Below, piece by piece: positions 37,694 through 48,989 of a stretch of DNA of 64,000 nucleotides. The position numbers and the translations under genes were made by a program. A model generated the notes under the pieces. The model was not told the DNA's origin. It made no database searches and saw only the letters and a program-made list of their open reading frames with translations. Position 1 is the first letter of the stretch, and each line of letters begins with the position of its first letter. The stretch is from Paracoccus aminophilus JCM 7686 (GTDB lineage: Bacteria > Pseudomonadota > Alphaproteobacteria > Rhodobacterales > Rhodobacteraceae): the NCBI RefSeq assembly GCF_000444995.1, contig NC_022043.1, forward strand, positions 62,001-126,000, in the 5' to 3' direction.

Positions 37694-38747
37694 GGCTTTG
37701 TTGCAGAAGTCCCCAGGGAGCAGGATTCACACGGGGAATCCATGGGGTTAATGGTCTGAGATGACGAGACCTGATCCTGCCCGCTATCGGACGAATAACT
37801 GGAAGAGTTACAACGAGGCCCTGAAGCGGCGCGGTTCCCTGCTGATCTGGTTGGACAAAGACATGACGTGGCTTGCGCCGAAGGCCGGTGGCAATGGCCG
37901 ACCGCCGGTGTTCAGCGATGCATCTGTCCAGTTTTGTTTGATGGTGAAGGTTCTGTTCGGGCTCCCACTTCGCCAGACGACCGGGATGGTGGCAAGCATT
38001 CTGTCGATGGCCGGTCTGGACTGGCCGGTGCCTGACTTTTCGACCCTGAGCCGTCGGCAGAAGCGCATCACGGTGCAAATATCGAACCGCCGTGCGTCCG
38101 GTCCGCTCAACCTGCTTGTTGACAGCACCGGAATAAAGTTCCTCGGGGATGGGGAGTGGCTTGCGCGTAAGCACGGCACGCAGCGTCGGCGCCAATATCG
38201 CAAGGTTCATTTGGCGATGGATACGGCCACCGGCGACATCCGTGCAGTAGAGTTCACCTCGAGCGACAAGGGCGACAGCCCCGTTCTGCCCCACCTGCTG
38301 GACCAGATCCCTGCCGATGAACAGATCGGCACCGTGACCGGCGATGGCGCTTTTGACACAAGGCGATGCCATAGCGCGATCCTCGAGCGCGGTGGAACGG
38401 CGATCATACCCATCCGCAAGAACGGGCGGCGATGGCGGGAGAACTGTCCCGCCGCCAGGGCCCGCAACGAGATCCTCAAGGCGACACAACGCCTGGGGCG
38501 GGCAGTCTGGAAACGCTGGTCAGGATATCACGCCCGAAGCCGGATCGAGGCCAAGATGAGGTGTCTCAAGTCGTTCGGGGAACGCATTGCATCACGCGAC
38601 CCGGATCGCCAAACCGCCGAGGTCCAGATCCGCGTAGCACTCATGAACCGCTTCAATGCACTCGGCACTGCCGAGATTGAACGCGTGGCCTGAACCCAAC
38701 GGGGAAAGGGGCGCGTCTGGCCGCAGCCGGACTTCTGCAACAATGCC
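37694..38747 (+). mobile_element. IS903-like insertion sequence (IS5 family), intact, 1,054 bp
   Basis: The ends are GGCTTTGTTGCAGAAGTCC (37694-37712) and its inverted copy at 38729-38747 with one mismatch. The first bases GGCTTTGTTG match the IS903 end. The flanks carry an exact 9-bp direct repeat, GACCTGAGC, at 37685-37693 and 38748-38756; 9 bp is the IS903-group duplication length. One intact transposase gene lies inside. The clean duplication points to a recent insertion. Confidence 0.95.
37761..38693 (+). CDS. IS5-family transposase (IS903 group)
   Basis: A 310-residue DDE transposase that appears intact. The first catalytic Asp is in LNLLVDSTGIKF, the second in TVTGDGAFDTRRC, and the Glu in HARSRIEAKMRC with the typical YREK-like spacing (RIEAKMRCLK). 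The N-terminal part has YNEALKRRGSLLIWLD and the VKVLFGLPLRQTTGMV block that defines the group. It fills most of the element. The stop at 38691-38693 is in the same frame as the downstream ATPase fragment, but that in-frame TGA prevents fusion. Confidence 0.95.
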   Translation: MTRPDPARYRTNNWKSYNEALKRRGSLLIWLDKDMTWLAPKAGGNGRPPVFSDASVQFCLMVKVLFGLPLRQTTGMVASILSMAGLDWPVPDFSTLSRRQKRITVQISNRRASGPLNLLVDSTGIKFLGDGEWLARKHGTQRRRQYRKVHLAMDTATGDIRAVEFTSSDKGDSPVLPHLLDQIPADEQIGTVTGDGAFDTRRCHSAILERGGTAIIPIRKNGRRWRENCPAARARNEILKATQRLGRAVWKRWSGYHARSRIEAKMRCLKSFGERIASRDPDRQTAEVQIRVALMNRFNALGTAEIERVA

Positions 38748-40206: not shown

Positions 40207-40716
40207 TCAATCACGTCGCGGCGATGCAGCGGCGAAATCGGCGGGCAGGGGATGGGACAGTACATCAAGCCCCTCGACCGCGCGCTCTTCGACCGTCCAG
40301 CCGAGCCGCTCGTAATAGGCCGAGATCGGGTTTTCCGCGCAAAGATACAGCCGCGCAGCGCCGCTGGCTTTGGCATGGGCCAGAGCCGCGCCGATCAAAG
40401 CCGCCCCGATCCCACGCCCGCGTGCCTCGGGCTCGACCCAAAGCGCGGCGAGCCACGGTGTCAGCGCCGGGCGGGCCTCGAGATCATTGGCAATGACCGA
40501 AACCGTGCCGAGAAAGCGCCCCTCGGTCAGAGCGACCAGTGTCGAGGGGATCGCCGCCTCGCCCATCGACAGGCGCGTCAGCGCGGTAACATCGGCCAGA
40601 GCATGACCATCGGCCTTCCACCAGGCTTGCCAGATCCGGTCGGCGACATCTGCCGCCTGCTCGGGGCAGTCGCGCAGATCGAGGATCTGCCAGGCGGGAG
40701 CTGTGGGATCGGTCAT
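40207..40716 (-). CDS. GNAT-family N-acetyltransferase
   Basis: A 169-residue acetyltransferase with the GNAT core: strand region GRFLGTVSVIANDLEAR, then TPWLAALWVEPEARGRGIGAALIGAAL (the acetyl-CoA loop, RGRGIG), and LYLCAENPISAYYERLGWTVEER near the end. It uses acetyl-CoA to acetylate an amine; the acceptor is unknown. Its start overlaps the stop of the patatin gene by four bases (40713-40716), so it is translated with that gene. Confidence 0.92.
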   Translation of the reverse strand: MTDPTAPAWQILDLRDCPEQAADVADRIWQAWWKADGHALADVTALTRLSMGEAAIPSTLVALTEGRFLGTVSVIANDLEARPALTPWLAALWVEPEARGRGIGAALIGAALAHAKASGAARLYLCAENPISAYYERLGWTVEERAVEGLDVLSHPLPADFAAASPRRD

Positions 40717-42539
40717 TCGTTGGGATCTTTCGGGGCAGGGCCAGCCAGCAGCCCGGCCAAGCCGCCTGCTGCGTCAAGCCGGCGCAGGGTGAATTCATAG
40801 GCCGCCGCCTCTTGAGCGCGGACGCTTTTCCAGTCGAGCAACCCCATGCCCGGCACCGAAGGCGGCATCAGCAGCAGGTCGTCGGGATGGGCGGGCTGGC
40901 GGAGTGTGCGGCTGCTGGTGACCATCATTGCGCGGCCGACGACCTCCATGATCTTCGGGAAATCCGTCGCGGAATGGCGGCGCAGCACGATCTGCCCGGC
41001 CAAACGGCGGCGCGAAGGCAGGTTCTCATAGGCGCTGCGCACGCGCCAATCTTCGTCCGGCGATAGGATCACCGCGATATTCGGGCCGGGTTTCAGCTGC
41101 CGCATGACCGCAGTCGGCACGTTGTCGATGATCGCGCCATCAACCAGCACATCGCCGGTTTCGGTGACAAAGGGCGGCAGCACGGCCGGGATCGCGGCTG
41201 AGGCGCGCACGGCCTGCCAGCACAGGCCTTGACGCAGCACGACGATCTCATTCGTCGACAGGCTGGTCGCGACTGCGAAGGCGTTGAGCGGGAGGTCTTC
41301 GAGGCGGTTCTTGCCGAATTCGACGCGCAATTCAGTGTCGAAATGGCTGTGATCGAAAACGCTGTAGAGCGGGATGTTCAGCTTGCTGAGCGAGCGCCGC
41401 TTGAGGAAAAACTCCTCGAACACGTCGAGCTTGCCCGCCATGACCGGGTTGCGCGCCATTTCAATCGCGATTGACGAGCCGATGCTGGTGCCGCCGAAAA
41501 GGTCAAAGACCGCGCCCGCATCAAACAGCGCACGCAGGACACCGATATGACCCGCGCCAAGCGCCCCGCCGCCGCCAAAGACGGCGCCAAGTGCGGTGCC
41601 GTTGAGAAAGCGCACGAGCCGCGCGAGATCGCCCGGATTGTCCAGCGCCAGATGGTGATGGAGATGCGGCGCGCGCGGGCCAAGCCAATTCGCCGTCTCG
41701 CGGATGGGGTCGCTCTGGCTTTCGCGCCAAAGCAGCAGGCTCACATGCTCTTGTCGGAAAAGCGGCAGGGCGAAGGTTTCGAGCGCGCCAAGCGCGACCG
41801 GTCCGGCGTGGCCTTCATCGGCGGCACCGATCAAAAGCAGGAAATCGCATTGGCTGAGCGCGGTGCGGTCCCAATCGGCATTGCCCTCGCCCGTGATGAG
41901 CAAAAGCCGCCCCTGCGCGCGCTCGCGCATCGCGAGCCAGTCCGAAACTGCGGCGGATTGGCTTGGATCGCGGTCGGCGGGCAGGTCGCGAAAGCCGATT
42001 GGCGCTGCATGGCCCGACTGACCCAGCGCCGCGCAGAGCTGGCGCACCAGACGTTCAGGCATCGGGGTCGCGCCCGCCTGACAGATGCCGATGGTCCCGG
42101 GCGCGCGTGGTGCCAGCGCGGGTGCGGTCGAGGTTGCCGCCGCCAGCCTGCGCCCGAAACTGCGCAGGATCGCCTGCGTGAAGGCTGGGACGCGCCGCGA
42201 CAGCTCGGCATAGGCATCGCGGTCGAGCGACATGACATCGCTGTCGCGAGTCGCGGTGACATCTGCGGTGCGGGTCAGCCCGGCGAAGAAGGCAATCTCG
42301 CCGATGGGCTCACCCGGGCCGATCTCGGCCAGCACGCGACTGCGGTCGCGCAGCACCTCGAATTTGCCGCGCAAGACGAAATAGACGCAATCGGCAGGTT
42401 CGCCTTGATGGACCAGCACCTTCCCGCGCGGCACCCGCAGGATCTGGGCCATCTGCAAGACCAGCCCGCGATCCTCGGGCGAGAGATCGCGCAGCAGTTC
42501 TTGCGCTGAGGGGGGAAGCTCGGAACTGGAAAGGGTCAT
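40713..42539 (-). CDS. Patatin-like phospholipase with cyclic-nucleotide-binding domain
   Basis: About 608 residues from ATG 42539 (MTLSSSELPPSAQELL). An N-terminal cyclic-nucleotide-binding domain covers about 20-130 (VLQMAQILRVPRGKVLVHQG, CVYFVLRGKFEVL, GPGEPIGEIAFFAGLTRTAD). A linker domain of about 150 residues follows (GTIGICQAGATPMPERLVRQ), then a patatin domain with oxyanion GGGGALGAGHIGVL, nucleophile GGTSIGSS and Asp of VDGAIIDN. This is the NTE/YchK-like architecture of an esterase or lysophospholipase controlled by cAMP or cGMP. A class III adenylate cyclase gene lies 4 kb away on the other strand, a possible source of the ligand. Confidence 0.93.
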   Translation of the reverse strand: MTLSSSELPPSAQELLRDLSPEDRGLVLQMAQILRVPRGKVLVHQGEPADCVYFVLRGKFEVLRDRSRVLAEIGPGEPIGEIAFFAGLTRTADVTATRDSDVMSLDRDAYAELSRRVPAFTQAILRSFGRRLAAATSTAPALAPRAPGTIGICQAGATPMPERLVRQLCAALGQSGHAAPIGFRDLPADRDPSQSAAVSDWLAMRERAQGRLLLITGEGNADWDRTALSQCDFLLLIGAADEGHAGPVALGALETFALPLFRQEHVSLLLWRESQSDPIRETANWLGPRAPHLHHHLALDNPGDLARLVRFLNGTALGAVFGGGGALGAGHIGVLRALFDAGAVFDLFGGTSIGSSIAIEMARNPVMAGKLDVFEEFFLKRRSLSKLNIPLYSVFDHSHFDTELRVEFGKNRLEDLPLNAFAVATSLSTNEIVVLRQGLCWQAVRASAAIPAVLPPFVTETGDVLVDGAIIDNVPTAVMRQLKPGPNIAVILSPDEDWRVRSAYENLPSRRRLAGQIVLRRHSATDFPKIMEVVGRAMMVTSSRTLRQPAHPDDLLLMPPSVPGMGLLDWKSVRAQEAAAYEFTLRRLDAAGGLAGLLAGPAPKDPNE

Positions 42540-42967
42540 CACATCCGCGGAATTGAGGGGCAGGCAGCAAGAAAACGGCAAGGTGGTCAGGCTGAACCAA
42601 ACGGATCAGTCAGTGCAGCAAAGCCCGTGGGGCGCAGGTCGTCACAGCGAAGGGGTTGCGTCGTCGTTGGTGATCCGGCGTTCTCATCTCCGCAATATGT
42701 CAGAGTTTAGGATGAGGTTTAAGCCAAGGAAATCAAACTGTGTTAAACTCTCCGACAGAAGCTGGCGATGGCGCGGAACTGTGATCTTCCAGACGCAAAC
42801 CCTCGGGTGCGGATGGCCCGCACAGCACACTTTCCCCGGGAAAACTAACTTTGTAGGGGCTGCCGGGGTCAAATGCTTTGGTCCTCGGCCCAAAGTCGCC
42901 TACACAAGCCCGAAGATGACGAATCTCAGATGCGGGTAAACCGCTTGACTGAGCGAGGGACGGACGA
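42540..42967. other. Gene-free divergent control region before the surface-protein genes
   Basis: About 430 bases between the minus-strand patatin gene and the plus-strand barrel gene. It is less GC-rich in the middle (GTTAAACTCTCCGACAG) and contains the near-palindrome TTTCCCCGGGAAA at 42831-42843. Promoters for both directions are expected here. No coding frame is convincing. Confidence 0.45.
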
Positions 42968-44392
42968 GTGACAGGCAAGAGCAGATCTGACGCGGGCGGG
43001 TATTTTTCTGGCCTGATGACGCGTGCGGGTCTGGCTGCGGGCGTCATGTTTGCGGGCTTCGCCGCGCCCGCGCCGCTTTTGGCCGAGCAGGTCAATTTGC
43101 AGCGTTACAACATTGCCCCGGACGCCCCCGGTGCCCTGGTCGCGCCGCTGGAACAGCGCCGGCGCGCGCTGCTCAAGCGGATGCAGGCCGATCCCGGCGA
43201 TCTCGATGCGGCCTTTGCCTATGCGCAGGCCTCGGCGCGGCTTGGTGATCTTGAGGGCGCGATTGCGACCTATGAGCGGATGTTGATCCGGGTCCCGAAC
43301 ACGCCGCGGCTGCAGCTCGAGTTGGGCGCGCTCTATTTCCGGCTGGGCGCGTTTGACAATTCGCGCGCCTATTTCCAGCAGGTGCTGGCCCGGCCCGACA
43401 CGCCGCCCGAGGTGCGCAACAATATCTCGACCTTCATGCTGGCGATGAACGGCAGCCGCAAGAAGGGCGGGGTGACCGGCCAACTCACCTATGGCCTGCG
43501 CCATCAAAGCAATGCCAATGCCGGGCCGAACAATCCGGTCGTGAACCTGATGGGCCGTGATTTCGTGCTCGACGATCTGGCGCGGGGGCGCCCGGATACC
43601 AGCGCGGTGCTGGGCCTGACGCTTGGCTATCTTCAGCCTTTGTCCTATCGCGGCGTCGCGATGCAATACAGCCTCGATGTCAATGCCACTGAATTCCGCG
43701 AGCGCACCGACATCTCGACCGAGGATGTCGAGATCCGGCTGGGTCCGGTCTTCCTGCTTGATCGCTATGGCATCAAGGGCGGCCGGCTGTCGGTCGCGGC
43801 GACGCTGGGTGGCGGGCGGTTGGGCGATGCGCCGAATTATCTCAGCTATGGGCTGAGCGTCGGCTATCAGATGCCGCTTTCGCGCAAAAGCGGGCTGCGT
43901 CTGGCCTTTGATTACCGTGATGAAGATTACCGCGCGACAGCCAAGCGCCCGCTGTCCAATCTGCTCTCGGGAGAGCGCTATCGTCTGACCGGCATGATCA
44001 CGCGCCAGCTTGGGCAAAATCTGCAGGGCTTTATCGGCGCGGGCCTCGAGCGGCGCACGGCCGAGCGCGATTACACCGCCTATTGGGAGGGCAGCACGCA
44101 ATTCGGTCTGTCCTATCGCTATACCGCGCCCTTCAAGGTGACCGAGCGGCCTTGGACGCTGACGCTGCTTGGCCGGGTCTCGCGCCGGGTGAATGATGCG
44201 CCCAACCCGATTGTCAGCAGCACGGAAAAGCAGAAGGGGAACGATTATTACCTTCAGCTGATCCAGAATGTGCCGCTCAACGACAAGGTCGGGTTGCAGG
44301 TCTATGGTGGCTATCGCTCGGTCCGTTCGAATTACGACATCCGCACCTTCCATGATGCCTCGGTCGGGGTATCCGTGATCCACAACTTCTGA
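42968..44392 (+). CDS. TPR plus outer-membrane beta-barrel protein, Slam/DUF560-like
   Basis: A 474-residue protein from GTG 42968 behind GAGGGA. A signal segment lies at about 17-40 (MTRAGLAAGVMFAGFAAPAP). TPR-type helices span about 55-150 (LDAAFAYAQASARLGDLEGA, LQLELGALYFRLGAFDNSRA). Beyond that the chain alternates beta strands to the end (GQLTYGLRHQSNANAGPNN, LSYGLSVGYQMPLSRKSG, FIGAGLERRTAERDY) and finishes with Phe (GVSVIHNF), as outer-membrane barrels do. This layout, exported TPR then barrel, is that of Slam (surface lipoprotein assembly modulator) proteins. Its immediate neighbour is a protein with a TbpB-like barrel, the type of cargo Slam moves. Assignment to Slam is by architecture, not proven. 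Confidence 0.78.
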   Translation: MTGKSRSDAGGYFSGLMTRAGLAAGVMFAGFAAPAPLLAEQVNLQRYNIAPDAPGALVAPLEQRRRALLKRMQADPGDLDAAFAYAQASARLGDLEGAIATYERMLIRVPNTPRLQLELGALYFRLGAFDNSRAYFQQVLARPDTPPEVRNNISTFMLAMNGSRKKGGVTGQLTYGLRHQSNANAGPNNPVVNLMGRDFVLDDLARGRPDTSAVLGLTLGYLQPLSYRGVAMQYSLDVNATEFRERTDISTEDVEIRLGPVFLLDRYGIKGGRLSVAATLGGGRLGDAPNYLSYGLSVGYQMPLSRKSGLRLAFDYRDEDYRATAKRPLSNLLSGERYRLTGMITRQLGQNLQGFIGAGLERRTAERDYTAYWEGSTQFGLSYRYTAPFKVTERPWTLTLLGRVSRRVNDAPNPIVSSTEKQKGNDYYLQLIQNVPLNDKVGLQVYGGYRSVRSNYDIRTFHDASVGVSVIHNF

Positions 44393-44401
44393 GGTGAACC
44401 G

Positions 44402-46369
44402 ATGAGAACCTCCCGTCTTCTCGCGGCCTCTGTCGCCGCGGCGCTGAGTTCAGGCCCGGTTCTGGCGCAGGATGTCGGCGTGACCTCGGCGATCAATCCC
44501 GATGCGAAATCGCGGATGGAGGGCGGCGCCTCGACGTTGGTGCGGCTGGGTCAGACGGTGATTCACAACGAGATCTTCGATACCGACAGCGCCGGGATCG
44601 TGCAGATCCTGCTGGCGGATGGCACGAATTTCACGGTCGGCCCGAATTCCTCGCTCAAGATCGACAATTTCGTCTATGACCCAACCGCCGATACGGCGAG
44701 CGTTGCCGCAAGCGCCTCGCGCGGGGTATTCCGCTTCATCGGCGGCGCGGCGAGCAAGGGCGATGGCAAGGCCGAGGTGACAACGCCGGTGGGCGTCGCG
44801 GGCATCCGCGGCGCGATCGTCGATTTCAACCTGACGCCCGCGGACGACATGCCGGCCCATATCACGCTGGTCTTCGGCGAAGAGGTCACGCTGCGCCTGC
44901 CAAACGGTGAAATCCTGAGCCTGAGCCTGCCCGGGACCTCGATCATCTTCAGCCCCAACGAGCCGCCCCGGATCGGATGGGCGCCCGACAGCTGGGCTGC
45001 AACCCAGAACATGGTCTTCACCAACAGCCAGCAACAGCAGGGCCTGCGCGCGCCCTTGACGGAGCTTGAGGCCGCGCTGATCCGCAGCGGTCTCGGCCCG
45101 GTTCCGCTGCCGCCGCCTGCTGGCTGGGGCAATCGTCCCGGGGATGAGGAAGACCTCGCCAATCAGAGCAACCAGCCGGGAGATCAGGCCCGCGAGGACA
45201 ATACGCTGGTGAATCTGCCGGACCATCTCGTGCCGACGGTTCCAACCGGCCCGACCGGACCCACGGGTCCGACCGATCCTACGGGGCCGACTGGCCCAAC
45301 CGATCCAACCGGACCCACTGGGCCAACCGGCCCGACTGACCCAACAGGCCCCACCGGGCCAACGGGTCCCACCGATCCCACCGGCCCGACGGGTCCGACT
45401 GGACCAACCGATCCGACCGGCCCCACGGGACCGACGGGGCCCACCGATCCCACTGGACCAACGGGTCCGACTGGTCCGACCGATCCTACGGGACCGACCG
45501 GTCCAACAGAGCCGACGCTCCCGACCGAGCCGACCTTTCCGACGAACCCGACCTTTCCAACCGATCCGACGGGCCCGACAGAGCCGCCTCCGTCCGGGCG
45601 GACCTTCACGGGCACCTATCAGGGTTATTCCAGCGGGTTGACCACCGCCTTTGGTCCGTTGAGCGGCACGACTGGGCAGGTGCGTTTCACCTTCAACCCG
45701 CAGGAGCGCACGCTCAACGGCTCGATCACTCCGGGCAGTTGGTACGGTGACCAGCAGTCATTCGACTTTTCCGATGCGGAATCGTTTTATTCCTCGGATA
45801 GCCGTTTCGGCGCGAGGAAGCCGGCAGGTTCGGGGCAGCAGGGCAGTGTGACGACGGCGATCCGCCAAGACCGGCTGTGCGACTGCGCGTTCATGGCTTG
45901 GGGCGTCTGGGCGGCGACCGGGCCGACCGGCAGCACCAATCACGATCCGGTCGAGAACGGCTATTGGGCGGTTGGCCGGTTCACCGATCCCGCCGATATT
46001 CCGACCACTGGCAGCGCAACCTATAGCGGCCATGCGGTCGGGAACTCGGTGCAGGACGGGCAGGTGCGAGAGGTCACCGGCGATATGACGGCAGGCGTCG
46101 ATTTCGCTACGGGCCGGGGCAACGTCCAGATCACGAATTTCGATGGCCGCGACTTTGGAACCGGCAATATTCCCATGACGCCGCAGGGCGGAACCCATGG
46201 CAATGGCTTTATCGGAGAGGCGCAGGGCCCGGGCGGCATCAACGGGCATCTCGAGGGCGGTTTCGTTGATAACGGCCAAATTCCGGCTGGCGGAATTCTC
46301 GGCGGCTTCGATGTCCATGACGGGTCGGGATGGTCCGGGTCGGGCATTTTCGGCGGCGGGCGTGACTGA
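44402..46369 (+). CDS. FecR-domain protein with GPT repeats and TbpB-like C-terminal barrel
   Basis: A 655-residue exported protein. The signal peptide is [20 protein letters not shown] with LAQ cleavage and no lipobox. A FecR domain covers about 45-145 ([35 protein letters not shown]). A linker then runs into a collagen-like GPT/DPT region at about 280-395. The C-terminal 255 residues look like the TbpB/factor-H-binding-protein barrel: [51 protein letters not shown] and [20 protein letters not shown]. The last strand is [10 protein letters not shown]. It starts nine bases after the barrel-protein gene and is followed 12 bases later by the adenylate cyclase, so all three are one operon. A surface or secreted sensor is the best guess. 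Confidence 0.82.
45238..45590 (+). repeat. In-frame GPT/DPT coding repeat
   Basis: A tandem repeat with a 36-base unit encoding [12 protein letters not shown], first irregular, then about six regular copies, then decaying to EPT/FPT/NPT triplets. Third codon positions vary between copies (CCG, CCC, CCA; ACC, ACG, ACT), so the protein repeat is conserved while the DNA has drifted. This suggests selection on the protein rather than recent slippage. Confidence 0.9.
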
Positions 46370-46381
46370 CGCTCGGGCGGA

Positions 46382-48613
46382 ATGATACGGCTCTGGCCGA
46401 GCTCTCCGGTCGGGCGGCGCCGCGCTGGCGTGAGCCTCGCCGGGCTGGCGACGCTGCTCTTGGCCTTGTTTGCGGCGACGCTGTTTCAGCCTTGGCGCGA
46501 ACGACTGACCTTTCAGGTCTTTGACGCCTATCAACGGCTGGCGCCTCGGGCCGCGACCGATCCGGCGGTTGCCGTGGTCGATATCGACGAGGCCTCGATT
46601 GCCGCGCTTGGGCAATGGCCTTGGCCGCGCGGAACTGTTGCCGATCTGGTTGACCGCTTGGGCGGCATGGGCGCGGCGGCCATTGCCTTCGATATGAGCT
46701 TTTCCGAGCCTGACCGCACCTCGCTCGATCAGGCGGTGACGCGGCTGCGCAATATGGGGGCCAGCATCAACCTGCCTGACGGCGGCGCGGCGCTGAACAG
46801 CGACGCGGCTTTCGCCGCCGCCATTGCGCGCAATCCGGTGGTGCTCGGGGTCGCGCTGAACAACGAAACCCGAACCCCGCCGCCGAAACCCCGCGCGGGC
46901 TTTGCCTTTGGCGGCTCTGATCCGCTGAGCTATCTGCCGCATTTCACCGGCAGTATCGGCAATATCGCACCGCTGACGGCGGCGGCGACCGGGATCGGCA
47001 GCTTTTCCTTCGTGCCGTCATCCGACAATATCGTCCGAACCATGCCGCTGGTCGTGGCGACCGAAGAGGGGCTTTTTCCCGCGCTCAATGTCGAGGCGCT
47101 GCGCGTGGCGCAAGGGGCTTCGTCCTTCGTCTTGCGCTCGACCGATGCCAGCGGCGAGCTTGGCGGCTCGGGCGGGGCGATGACCGCGTTGAAAGTCGGG
47201 ACACTTTCGGCGCCGACCGATGCTGACGGGCGGCTCTGGCTGCATTTCTCGGGTATGCCGCGGATGCCGGTGATCCCAGCGGCGGATGTGCTCGACCCAA
47301 CGAAAGCGGCGGTGATCGAGCCCGAGATCTCGGGCCGGATCGTGCTGATCGGCACCAGCGCAATCGGGCTGCGCGATATTGTGGCGACTCCGATCTCGCG
47401 TTCTTGGCCCGGGGTGAAGGTCCATGCCGAGGTCATCGACCAGATCATCAACCAAAGCTTTCTGACCCGTCCCGACTGGGCACCCGGCGCCGAGCTGACG
47501 GTCGCGGTTCTGGCCAGTGTCGTGCTGATCGGGATCGTGGCCCTTCTGGGCCCGGTTCTCAGCAGCCTTGGCCTTGGGCTGTTGCTGGCGGCGGTGGCCG
47601 GGCTGTCCTGGATCAGCTTCAATCGCTTTGGCCTGCTCCTCGATCCGGTGCTGCCGGTCCTGTGCCTGATCGCGGTCTTTGGCCTGACCGCGCCTTTGCT
47701 GATCGCGCTGACCAACCGCGAGAAGCTTTTCGTGCGCAGTGCCTTCGGACGCTATCTCTCGCCGACGCTGGTCGATCGGCTGTCCGATGACCCCTCGGCC
47801 CTGCGGCTGGGTGGCGAGGCGCGTGAGCTGACCGTGCTCTTTTCCGATATCCGCGGCTTTACCACCTTGTCAGAGCGGCTCGATCCGACCGCATTGACCG
47901 CGCTTTTGAACGGCTTTCTTACGCCGATGACCGATGTCCTCTTGGCGCATGAGGCGACGATCGACAAATATATTGGCGATGCGATCATGGCCTTCTGGAA
48001 CGCGCCGCTGGAGATCGAAGGACACGAGCGCAAGGCCTGCCTTGCCGCGCTTGCCATGGCCGAGGCGGTCGAGCGGATGAACCGCGAGCGCGGCAGCGAG
48101 ATCCGTATCGGCGTTGGGCTGCATCGCGGCATGGCCTGCGTCGGCAATCTGGGCTCGATCCAGCGGTTTTCCTATTCCGCGATTGGCGACACCGTCAATC
48201 TGGCCTCGCGGGTCGAAGGGCTGACCAAGCAATATGGCGTCAGCATTGCCGTGACCGAGGCGGTGCGCGCCGCCGTCAGCGAGGCCACTGGCGAGGATCT
48301 GGCCTTTCTCGAACTTGACCGCGTCCGCGTTGTGGGTCGCGCCGCGCCGGTCGCGCTTTTCGCGCTTCTCGGCGATGAAAACCAAGCGCGCCAGCCCGCG
48401 TTCTACGACTGGCGTCTTGCGCATGAGGCGTTTCTGGCGGCCTATCGCGCTGGGGATTTCGCCACGGCCACCACGCGTCTGGCCGCGCTGCGCACCCGAG
48501 CCGAGCCCGGATTGCAGGGCCTCTACGAACAATATCACGAGCGGATTACGAATCTTCTTGCCAAACCGCCCGGCCCAGATTGGGATGGCGTTTATACCGC
48601 GAAATCAAAATGA
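46382..48613 (+). CDS. CHASE2-domain class III adenylate cyclase
   Basis: A 743-residue membrane cyclase. TM1 at about 18-37 is followed by an extracytoplasmic CHASE2 sensor (about 40-350: VAVVDIDEASIAALGQWPWP, AIAFDMSFSEPD, IVLIGTSAIGLRDIVATP), three helices (about 370-440) and a catalytic domain at about 475-660. Metal-binding aspartates are in VLFSDIRGFTTLSE and IDKYIGDAIMAF. The Lys of DKYIGD and the Asp of YSAIGDTVNLASR are the pair that selects ATP, so cAMP is the expected product. The arginine transition-state residue is in NLASRVEG. It follows the FecR/TbpB-like gene by 12 bases, so it may signal the state of that surface protein. Confidence 0.93.
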   Translation: MIRLWPSSPVGRRRAGVSLAGLATLLLALFAATLFQPWRERLTFQVFDAYQRLAPRAATDPAVAVVDIDEASIAALGQWPWPRGTVADLVDRLGGMGAAAIAFDMSFSEPDRTSLDQAVTRLRNMGASINLPDGGAALNSDAAFAAAIARNPVVLGVALNNETRTPPPKPRAGFAFGGSDPLSYLPHFTGSIGNIAPLTAAATGIGSFSFVPSSDNIVRTMPLVVATEEGLFPALNVEALRVAQGASSFVLRSTDASGELGGSGGAMTALKVGTLSAPTDADGRLWLHFSGMPRMPVIPAADVLDPTKAAVIEPEISGRIVLIGTSAIGLRDIVATPISRSWPGVKVHAEVIDQIINQSFLTRPDWAPGAELTVAVLASVVLIGIVALLGPVLSSLGLGLLLAAVAGLSWISFNRFGLLLDPVLPVLCLIAVFGLTAPLLIALTNREKLFVRSAFGRYLSPTLVDRLSDDPSALRLGGEARELTVLFSDIRGFTTLSERLDPTALTALLNGFLTPMTDVLLAHEATIDKYIGDAIMAFWNAPLEIEGHERKACLAALAMAEAVERMNRERGSEIRIGVGLHRGMACVGNLGSIQRFSYSAIGDTVNLASRVEGLTKQYGVSIAVTEAVRAAVSEATGEDLAFLELDRVRVVGRAAPVALFALLGDENQARQPAFYDWRLAHEAFLAAYRAGDFATATTRLAALRTRAEPGLQGLYEQYHERITNLLAKPPGPDWDGVYTAKSK

Positions 48614-48650: not shown

Positions 48651-48989
48651 ATGCTGACGAGCAATCTGGCGGACCTGTTTGCCCTGATGGTCTTTGGGCA
48701 TATGCTCGGGGATTATCCATTGCAGGGCGCGTTTCTGTCGCGTGCCAAGAACCGCAGCGATCCCTTGCCCGGCACGCCGTGGTATCAGGCGCTGGCGGCC
48801 CATGCGATCATTCAGGGCGGTATCGTCGGGATCATCACCGGCAGCCTTGTGCTCGCGCTTTTGGAAACCGTGATCCACGCCTTGATCGACGACGCCAAAT
48901 GCAGAAACAAGATCGGCTTCAATCTCGATCAGCTGCTGCACATCCTGTGCAAACTGCTGTGGATCGGGCTGCTGGTGATCTGGACCTGA
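48651..48989 (+). CDS. DUF3307-like small membrane protein
   Basis: A 112-residue membrane protein with about three helices. Family features are FALMVFGHMLGDYPLQGAFLS near the start (a conserved HxxGDxxLQ pattern), WYQALAAHAIIQGGIVGII and VIHALIDDAKCRNKIGFNLDQLLH. DUF3307 proteins have no settled function; the His/Asp pattern in the membrane recalls metal or lipid enzymes but is not proof. It begins 38 bases after the cyclase gene and could be cotranscribed. Confidence 0.85.
   Translation: MLTSNLADLFALMVFGHMLGDYPLQGAFLSRAKNRSDPLPGTPWYQALAAHAIIQGGIVGIITGSLVLALLETVIHALIDDAKCRNKIGFNLDQLLHILCKLLWIGLLVIWT

Follow-up and report, generated by a model that had tools for sequence, protein, structure and literature searches.

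A cassette of three adjacent genes in Paracoccus aminophilus JCM 7686 (NC_022043.1) was analyzed within a window of 64,000 nucleotides, which is the whole stretch of DNA under study and to which all coordinates refer. The closest described system is the type 11 secretion system (T11SS), in which a channel of the Slam or DUF560/SlipAM kind combines tetratricopeptide repeats (TPR) with a 14-stranded barrel and the cargo carries a handle and a C-terminal TbpB-like barrel. In the available part of one T11SS paper, PT/PTD repeats precede some predicted cargo barrels and soluble cargo is predicted as well (PMC12282271). A lipobox is expected only of surface lipoproteins. The T11SS papers, in the portions available, treat the channel as an exporter only, and FecR, CHASE2 and cyclase are absent from the main texts of those of 2021 and 2025.

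According to the available text of a 2016 report, the factors recognized by CHASE2 domains were not known, and a Burkholderia FecR/LysM-CHASE2 operon encodes a secreted FecR protein and, after it, a CHASE2 sensor (PMC5192318). That operon has a histidine kinase in place of a cyclase, and the same portion of the report mentions no exporter or cargo barrel. A Campylobacterota cluster brings together a CHASE2 cyclase, a FecR protein and a TPR protein; it differs in having a phosphodiesterase, and the accessible sections of its description mention neither a barrel of the Slam kind nor a TbpB-like cargo domain (PMC9239204). In S. meliloti, the outer membrane barrel NsrA and CyaK are both needed if the cell is to respond to an external protein, so that there too a barrel is required for CHASE2 cyclases (CyaK, CyaD1, CyaD2) to sense what is outside the cell; the barrel portion of NsrA spans residues 600-1200, and the comparison with the present barrel protein is by description only (excerpted text of PMC7529298). 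Within open-licence full texts, T11SS terms were never joined with a FecR domain or CHASE2, CHASE2 or adenylate cyclase never with surface lipoprotein assembly modifier, and CHASE2 never with a cyclic nucleotide monophosphate (cNMP) domain or patatin. The original prediction, made from this DNA alone, that no described system is known to have the combination needs one qualification: the CHASE2-FecR-TPR part is already in print for Campylobacterota. The link to secretion is not reported in the available text of that source.

The three genes lie on the plus strand and are denoted P1 (TPR plus barrel; 42968-44392, 474 residues), P2 (FecR plus barrel; 44402-46369, 655 residues) and P3 (CHASE2 cyclase; 46382-48613, 743 residues). 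The same-strand open reading frames (ORFs) confirm the predicted gaps of 9 bases between P1 and P2 and 12 bases between P2 and P3. The P1 start codon is GTG at 42968, with alternative ATG codons at positions 17 and 27 of the frame. The arrangement is not due to chance, since it recurs in Alphaproteobacteria and Stenotrophomonas. It departs from a T11SS in that the cargo begins with FecR and has no lipobox, a cyclase follows, a cNMP-binding gene is near and P1 falls below the Pfam cut-off.

The interpretation to which we give roughly an even chance is that the cassette encodes a trans-envelope cyclic AMP (cAMP) signalling module built on a T11SS-like channel. P1, in the outer membrane, would bring the TbpB-like barrel at the C-terminus of P2 to the cell surface, and the FecR domain of P2 would remain in the periplasm, tethered to the surface barrel by a Pro/Thr rod or other long linker. 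The periplasmic CHASE2 domain of P3 would read FecR as present, absent, or altered when the surface barrel binds a putative ligand or is oxidized, and this reading would set the cytoplasmic cyclase of P3. The cAMP produced would act on the adjacent cNMP-binding protein, which here is a patatin-like phospholipase. What the computations establish is the domains, their homologies, the recurrence of the set, the shared distribution of cargo and exporter, and the association of cNMP genes with the cyclase, whereas export of P2 by P1, retention of FecR, its contact with CHASE2, the ligand and the response of the effector to cAMP are proposals. In this cassette FecR is a candidate periplasmic partner for CHASE2, within a linear pathway whose candidate output is encoded alongside, and information on what an exported protein does outside may in this way reach the cell interior. 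Whether a CHASE2 cyclase reads an exported protein at its FecR end becomes directly testable in environmental bacteria.

The T11SS-like channel P1 and its partner P2

P1 is predicted to be an outer membrane protein. Several Pfam TPR models scored above their cut-offs, and the repeats occupy residues 55-163 (about 43130-43456), followed by a barrel at residues 168-473 (about 43469-44386). The AlphaFold model, with a predicted local distance difference test score of 91.6 and a predicted template modelling score of 0.78, has helices within 55-163 and, counted by hand, 14 long strands at 168-473. Among 83 P1 relatives, SlipAM was matched at E≤0.01 in 21 (best 5e-9) and TPR_Slam in 7 (best 1.2e-5), and matches to rival barrel families were fewer and weaker (OMP_b-brl_3 in 9, best 3.7e-5; DUF481 in 8, best 1.6e-4).

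Because similarity driven by the TPRs had to be excluded, the barrels were compared alone, with the repeats removed, against 16 SlipAM matches from Alphaproteobacterial genomes, one of which (L302) is a mis-cut scrap. HHalign aligned the P1 and SlipAM barrels at 99.8% (E 2.9e-29) over 283 columns. The profile of the SlipAM proteins matched all 83 P1 barrels at E<1e-3, with 3.4e-14 for the window in this search of 83 sequences, and the reverse search of 16 sequences with the P1 profile matched 14 of the SlipAM proteins. By these comparisons the P1 barrel is homologous to the channels of type 11 secretion (Slam, SlipAM), and P1 is filed as a distant branch of the SlipAM superfamily, outside the Pfam membership. 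The Slam architecture originally proposed for P1 is thus upheld, although P1 lies under the Pfam cut-off, and moving cargo to the surface is its putative function.

P2 (44402..46369) has a signal peptide by eye and a FecR domain at residues 61-156 (44582..44869) that scored above the Pfam cut-off. The handle and barrel at residues 398-655 (45593..46366) matched TbpB_B_D, FHBP_C and slam_lipo (E=5.5e-9), each short of its cut-off; scores of 25.8 of the required 26 bits for TbpB_B_D and 38.6/80 bits for slam_lipo were recorded. This C-terminal barrel shares the fold of TbpB (C-lobe), NHBA and fHbp, the Slam-cargo type. The similarities to DUF560 and TbpB on which the original prediction depended are therefore real, as is the FecR domain. 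The predicted collagen-like spacer calls for a correction. Residues 283-372 (45248..45517), by sequence count, form 30 triplets, of which 22 are GPT, 7 DPT and 1 EPT; the Pfam Collagen model remained under its cut-off (20.7/27.2 bits), and two NCBIfam collagen-like adhesin models (E 6e-12 and 4e-11) scored far below theirs. A putative Pro/Thr rod is preferred to a collagen triple helix because the Asp and Glu residues break the Gly-X-Y rule.

P2 has no lipobox cysteine, and a lipobox-like pattern was present in the N-termini of only 2 of 73 relatives. Its only cysteines, residues 493 and 495, form a CxC motif (45878..45886) ahead of WG within the barrel. Both cysteine columns are invariant in a 68-row alignment, and the pattern C-x(1,2)-C...WG is found in 67 of the 68 rows. 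In 66 proteins the linker from FecR to the handle and barrel measures 59-482 residues, which is enough to place FecR inside and the barrel outside the outer membrane and therefore favours a LapA-like split topology. LapA is itself split across the outer membrane in this way. Two FecR proteins of 1,620-1,632 residues (L266, L268) carry two barrel copies, resembling the two lobes of TbpB.

Recurrence of the cassette and co-distribution of its parts

A scan of named genomes yielded 326 P1 relatives, of which the best 80 were used; these come from Paracoccus, Stenotrophomonas, Rhizobium, Aureimonas, Stappia, Roseibium and others. Full flanks, meaning 3 kb or more to each side of P1, were available for 66 of the 80 loci. 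A FecR gene lies directly downstream of P1 in 62 of these, and the other four, all from Stappia (L160, L161, L187, L198), each have a FecR gene upstream. A P3 homologue is present in 39 of the 66 and is downstream on the same strand in 36 of the 39. In 29 of those 36 the P2-P3 gap is at most 13 bases or the genes overlap, with starts assigned by longest ORF. The barrel profile matched 66 of 70 P2 proteins (69 loci and the window), a count that is not independent since the profile matches its own members by construction. The four unmatched rows comprise two broken genes (L121, L180), a short FecR protein that precedes a FecR-barrel protein (L167) and a FecR protein lacking the barrel (L168). 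On the P1 tree the barrel label needs 8 changes, at least 5 of them on supported branches, which is compatible with gain or loss.

The co-distribution of the two proteins was evaluated by searching 385 genomes of the class separately for P1 (strong, E≤1e-30) and for the barrel (strong, E≤1e-15), scoring at most 4 or 6 candidates per genome, respectively, so that misses are possible. Strong P1 was found in 47 genomes and a strong barrel in 30, and all 30 barrel genomes have strong P1 (Fisher 6e-33, relatedness not corrected). Weaker barrels only (E 1e-11 to 1e-3) were found in 12 further genomes; three of these have strong P1, eight of the other nine have a SlipAM match and one (G541) has neither. 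The strong barrels number 42, with 22 downstream of P1 and 20 not beside a detected P1. No P1 was found in the stretches examined around these 20 FecR-barrel genes (L231-L250), several of the stretches reaching a contig end; FecR is in the same ORF in 13, the sequence is cut before the N-terminus in 6, and one (L242) has no ORF match. One genome, G477, has six FecR-barrel genes and one detected P1. Conversely, 33 P1 loci lack a strong barrel. No FecR neighbour was found in 14 of them, 11 of which are in genomes with barrel genes elsewhere, and of the remaining 19, with a FecR neighbour, two (L271, L272) have a weak barrel match and 17 have no detected barrel, some of these 17 loci being cut by contig ends.

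The pairing of FecR with CHASE2 was followed in the family of P. aminophilus, where CHASE2 is present in 44 of 198 genomes; all 57 CHASE2 places besides that of the window were examined, with 3 further regions, giving 60 loci. In 20 of them a FecR protein accompanies a P3 homologue without P1. All 20 of these proteins match FecR and five have cadherin-type repeats, and a TbpB or FHBP model matched none of the 20. The LapA retention model matched 15 of the 20 at E≤0.01 (best 2.3e-7; one row 28.2/50 bits), some of them with type 1 secretion genes, which likens them to adhesins of the LapA/BapA type. The window P2 differs from these in its weak match to that model (E 8e-4, 19.7/50 bits) and in its pairing with a T11SS-like channel. 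Type 1 secretion genes for HlyD and an ABC protein occur at 10 of the 60 loci (L061, L062, L067-L071, L076, L077, L107; L062 and L071 checked with Pfam), nine with an outer membrane efflux match, and at 7 of the 10 a large adjacent frame of 820-3,345 residues holds a FecR match. The export route thus changes while the FecR-CHASE2 pair persists, and it is chiefly on this ground that FecR is proposed as the part that is read in the periplasm.

The cyclase, its neighbours and alternative explanations

P3 contains CHASE2 at residues 27-384 (Pfam E=3e-60) and a class III cyclase domain at residues 481-654 (E=5e-24), flanked in the case of CHASE2 by hydrophobic stretches at 14-37 and 366-446. In all 41 aligned P3 sequences, the residues that we take to be both metal-binding Asp, the adenine-selecting Lys, and the transition-state Asn and Arg are kept; the second base-selecting position varies (Ser in 23, Thr in 7, others in 11). 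P3 is therefore a predicted CHASE2 class III adenylate cyclase, as had been proposed.

A candidate cAMP effector is encoded on the minus strand at 40713..42581, divergently and 386 bases upstream of the cassette, and its TTG start as listed is possibly too far upstream. The protein combines a cNMP-binding domain with an NTE-type P-loop/patatin phospholipase. Its gene adjoins the cassette in all five near relatives with adequate flanks, namely Paracoccus L121 (gene broken) and L122 and Stenotrophomonas L123, L125 and L128. Other loci have other cNMP-binding neighbours, identified with Pfam: SulP-STAS-cNMP proteins at 38 bp in Rhizobium wuzhouense (L134) and at 272 bp in L150, and farther off in L137 (2.3 kb) and Shinella L144 (3.9 kb); a SpoIIE-cNMP protein at 49 bp in Aureimonas (L127), and likewise in the P1-less locus L073; a glutaminase-STAS-cNMP protein at 106 bp in a Devosia metagenome-assembled genome (L133); and a CRP gene between FecR and the cyclase in L256. 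Among 42 loci with P3, 23 have a cNMP gene no more than 500 bp away, compared with none of the 38 loci lacking P3; the first count is partly non-independent because the profile was built from eleven such proteins and matches its own members by construction. Within 5 kb the counts are 28 of 42 and 0 of 38, and in the full-flank subset 21 of 39 and 0 of 27 (p 1.2e-6). That a surface protein is exported and its state reported as cAMP, as originally suggested, is still something we infer, and it is helped by the finding of cNMP-binding genes close by only in cyclase loci.

Several results weigh against the signalling module. The window P1 matched Pfam SlipAM only weakly (E=0.02, 14.9/22 bits), a SlipAM search of the P. 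aminophilus genome returned nothing at E≤0.001, and 6 of 53 strong P1 places in the 385 genomes (G280, G292, G360, G376, G487, G546) exceeded the cut-off, with two more (G476, G563) matching below it. The Fisher test for the co-occurrence of barrel and P1 leaves relatedness uncorrected. The three genes do recur together, as had been predicted; the set is nevertheless rare in the family, and 27 of the 66 full-flank loci show no cyclase. A search of the 198 family genomes with the whole of P2 gave matches in 54, covering the FecR part or the repeats, with no second full-length P2 among the matches listed. Only 4 of the 57 other CHASE2 places of the family have P1 and FecR (L081, L086, L092, L110), and their FecR proteins have no TbpB, FHBP or slam_lipo match. 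The complete gene set is therefore patchy in the family, and Paracoccus species and Stenotrophomonas hold its nearest relatives. When only independent tree pairs were counted, the association between cNMP genes and the cyclase was not significant (2-3 for, 0 against, p≥0.25), and for this reason it is graded as suggestive, short of proof. Slam cargo such as TbpB crosses the outer membrane in full, and FecR might accordingly finish on the outside. In addition, the S. meliloti FecR gene smc02177 is dispensable for perception of the plant shoot signal, a point of difference from the cassette, and is required for infection control, as stated in the available text (PMC5498481). Finally, some P1 relatives have as their partner a FecR protein in which no barrel was detected (14 that were read, and L168). 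This weighs most heavily against a pure cargo-barrel account; P1 may serve FecR itself. The 14 mostly have low-complexity tails, and four end in CxC or CxxC. A terminal CxC, CxxC or Cys cluster marks the barrel-less partners at L251, L256, L278, L286 and L168.

The possibility was considered that there is a receptor without export, in which P1 is an outer membrane receptor or plugged channel resembling NsrA or FecA, FecR relays its state to CHASE2 through the periplasm, and the TbpB-like barrel serves as a plug or docking piece within the periplasm. The many genomes that pair P1 with barrel-less FecR proteins favour it, as does the NsrA precedent for barrel-to-CHASE2 signalling in the accessible text of PMC7529298. 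However, the P2 barrel is of the T11SS-cargo type, and strong barrels occur only in strong-P1 genomes and yet in 20 of 42 cases not beside a detected P1, as an exporter and its cargo predict. We consider this explanation possible but doubtful. It is unlikely that P1 and P2 are a plain secretion pair, in which P2 would be exported whole by P1 to serve as an adhesin or binding protein, and that the CHASE2 and cNMP genes regulate other envelope functions. P1-P2 pairs with no cyclase in view are common among the full-flank loci, and P2 could be released since it has no lipobox. The tight P2-P3 spacing argues otherwise, as do the FecR-CHASE2 pairs kept at loci without P1, some of them next to a different export system. 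Foldseek placed PelB and BcsC, both TPR-plus-barrel proteins, as the top two matches to P1, which would suit a polysaccharide exporter of the PgaA/BcsC/PelB kind with P2 as a matrix protein. This is highly improbable: 14 strands were counted in the P1 model, against the 16 predicted for PgaA homologues in the part of PMC8406197 available, the barrel is homologous to SlipAM proteins, and the partner carries a cargo-type barrel.

The cAMP signalling module on a T11SS-like channel may be one form of a broader modular design, which we put forward tentatively. The channel and a half-exported cargo together would be the receptor, with FecR as a periplasmic retention and reporting head and the tail displayed by whichever route is available, T11SS-like here and type 1 secretion elsewhere. 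CHASE2 would read the head, and cAMP would switch an exchangeable local cNMP-binding protein (phospholipase, SulP transporter, SpoIIE phosphatase, glutaminase or CRP). A redox or metal signal would enter at the C-x(1,2)-C of the barrel, which is nearly invariant.

Other features of these loci were noted. In the family of P. aminophilus, L118, with no cyclase in view, has a P1 that reaches 22.4/22 bits with SlipAM and a FecR protein that matches slam_lipo (E 9e-6). In L121, a Paracoccus cavernae record, all three genes are split into overlapping frames, probably through assembly errors. A 5'-nucleotidase-type metallophosphoesterase gene is upstream of P1 in L160 (Stappia) and L162 (Roseibium), where no cyclase is in view. 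After P3 in the window, a gene for a DUF3307 protein (48651..48989, plus strand) has a relative at L121, L123, L125 and L128, four of the five near loci, was not found in L122, and has a weaker match in L256. About 4 kb from the cassette, the ORF at 37761-38693 has the look of what we take to be an insertion-sequence transposase.

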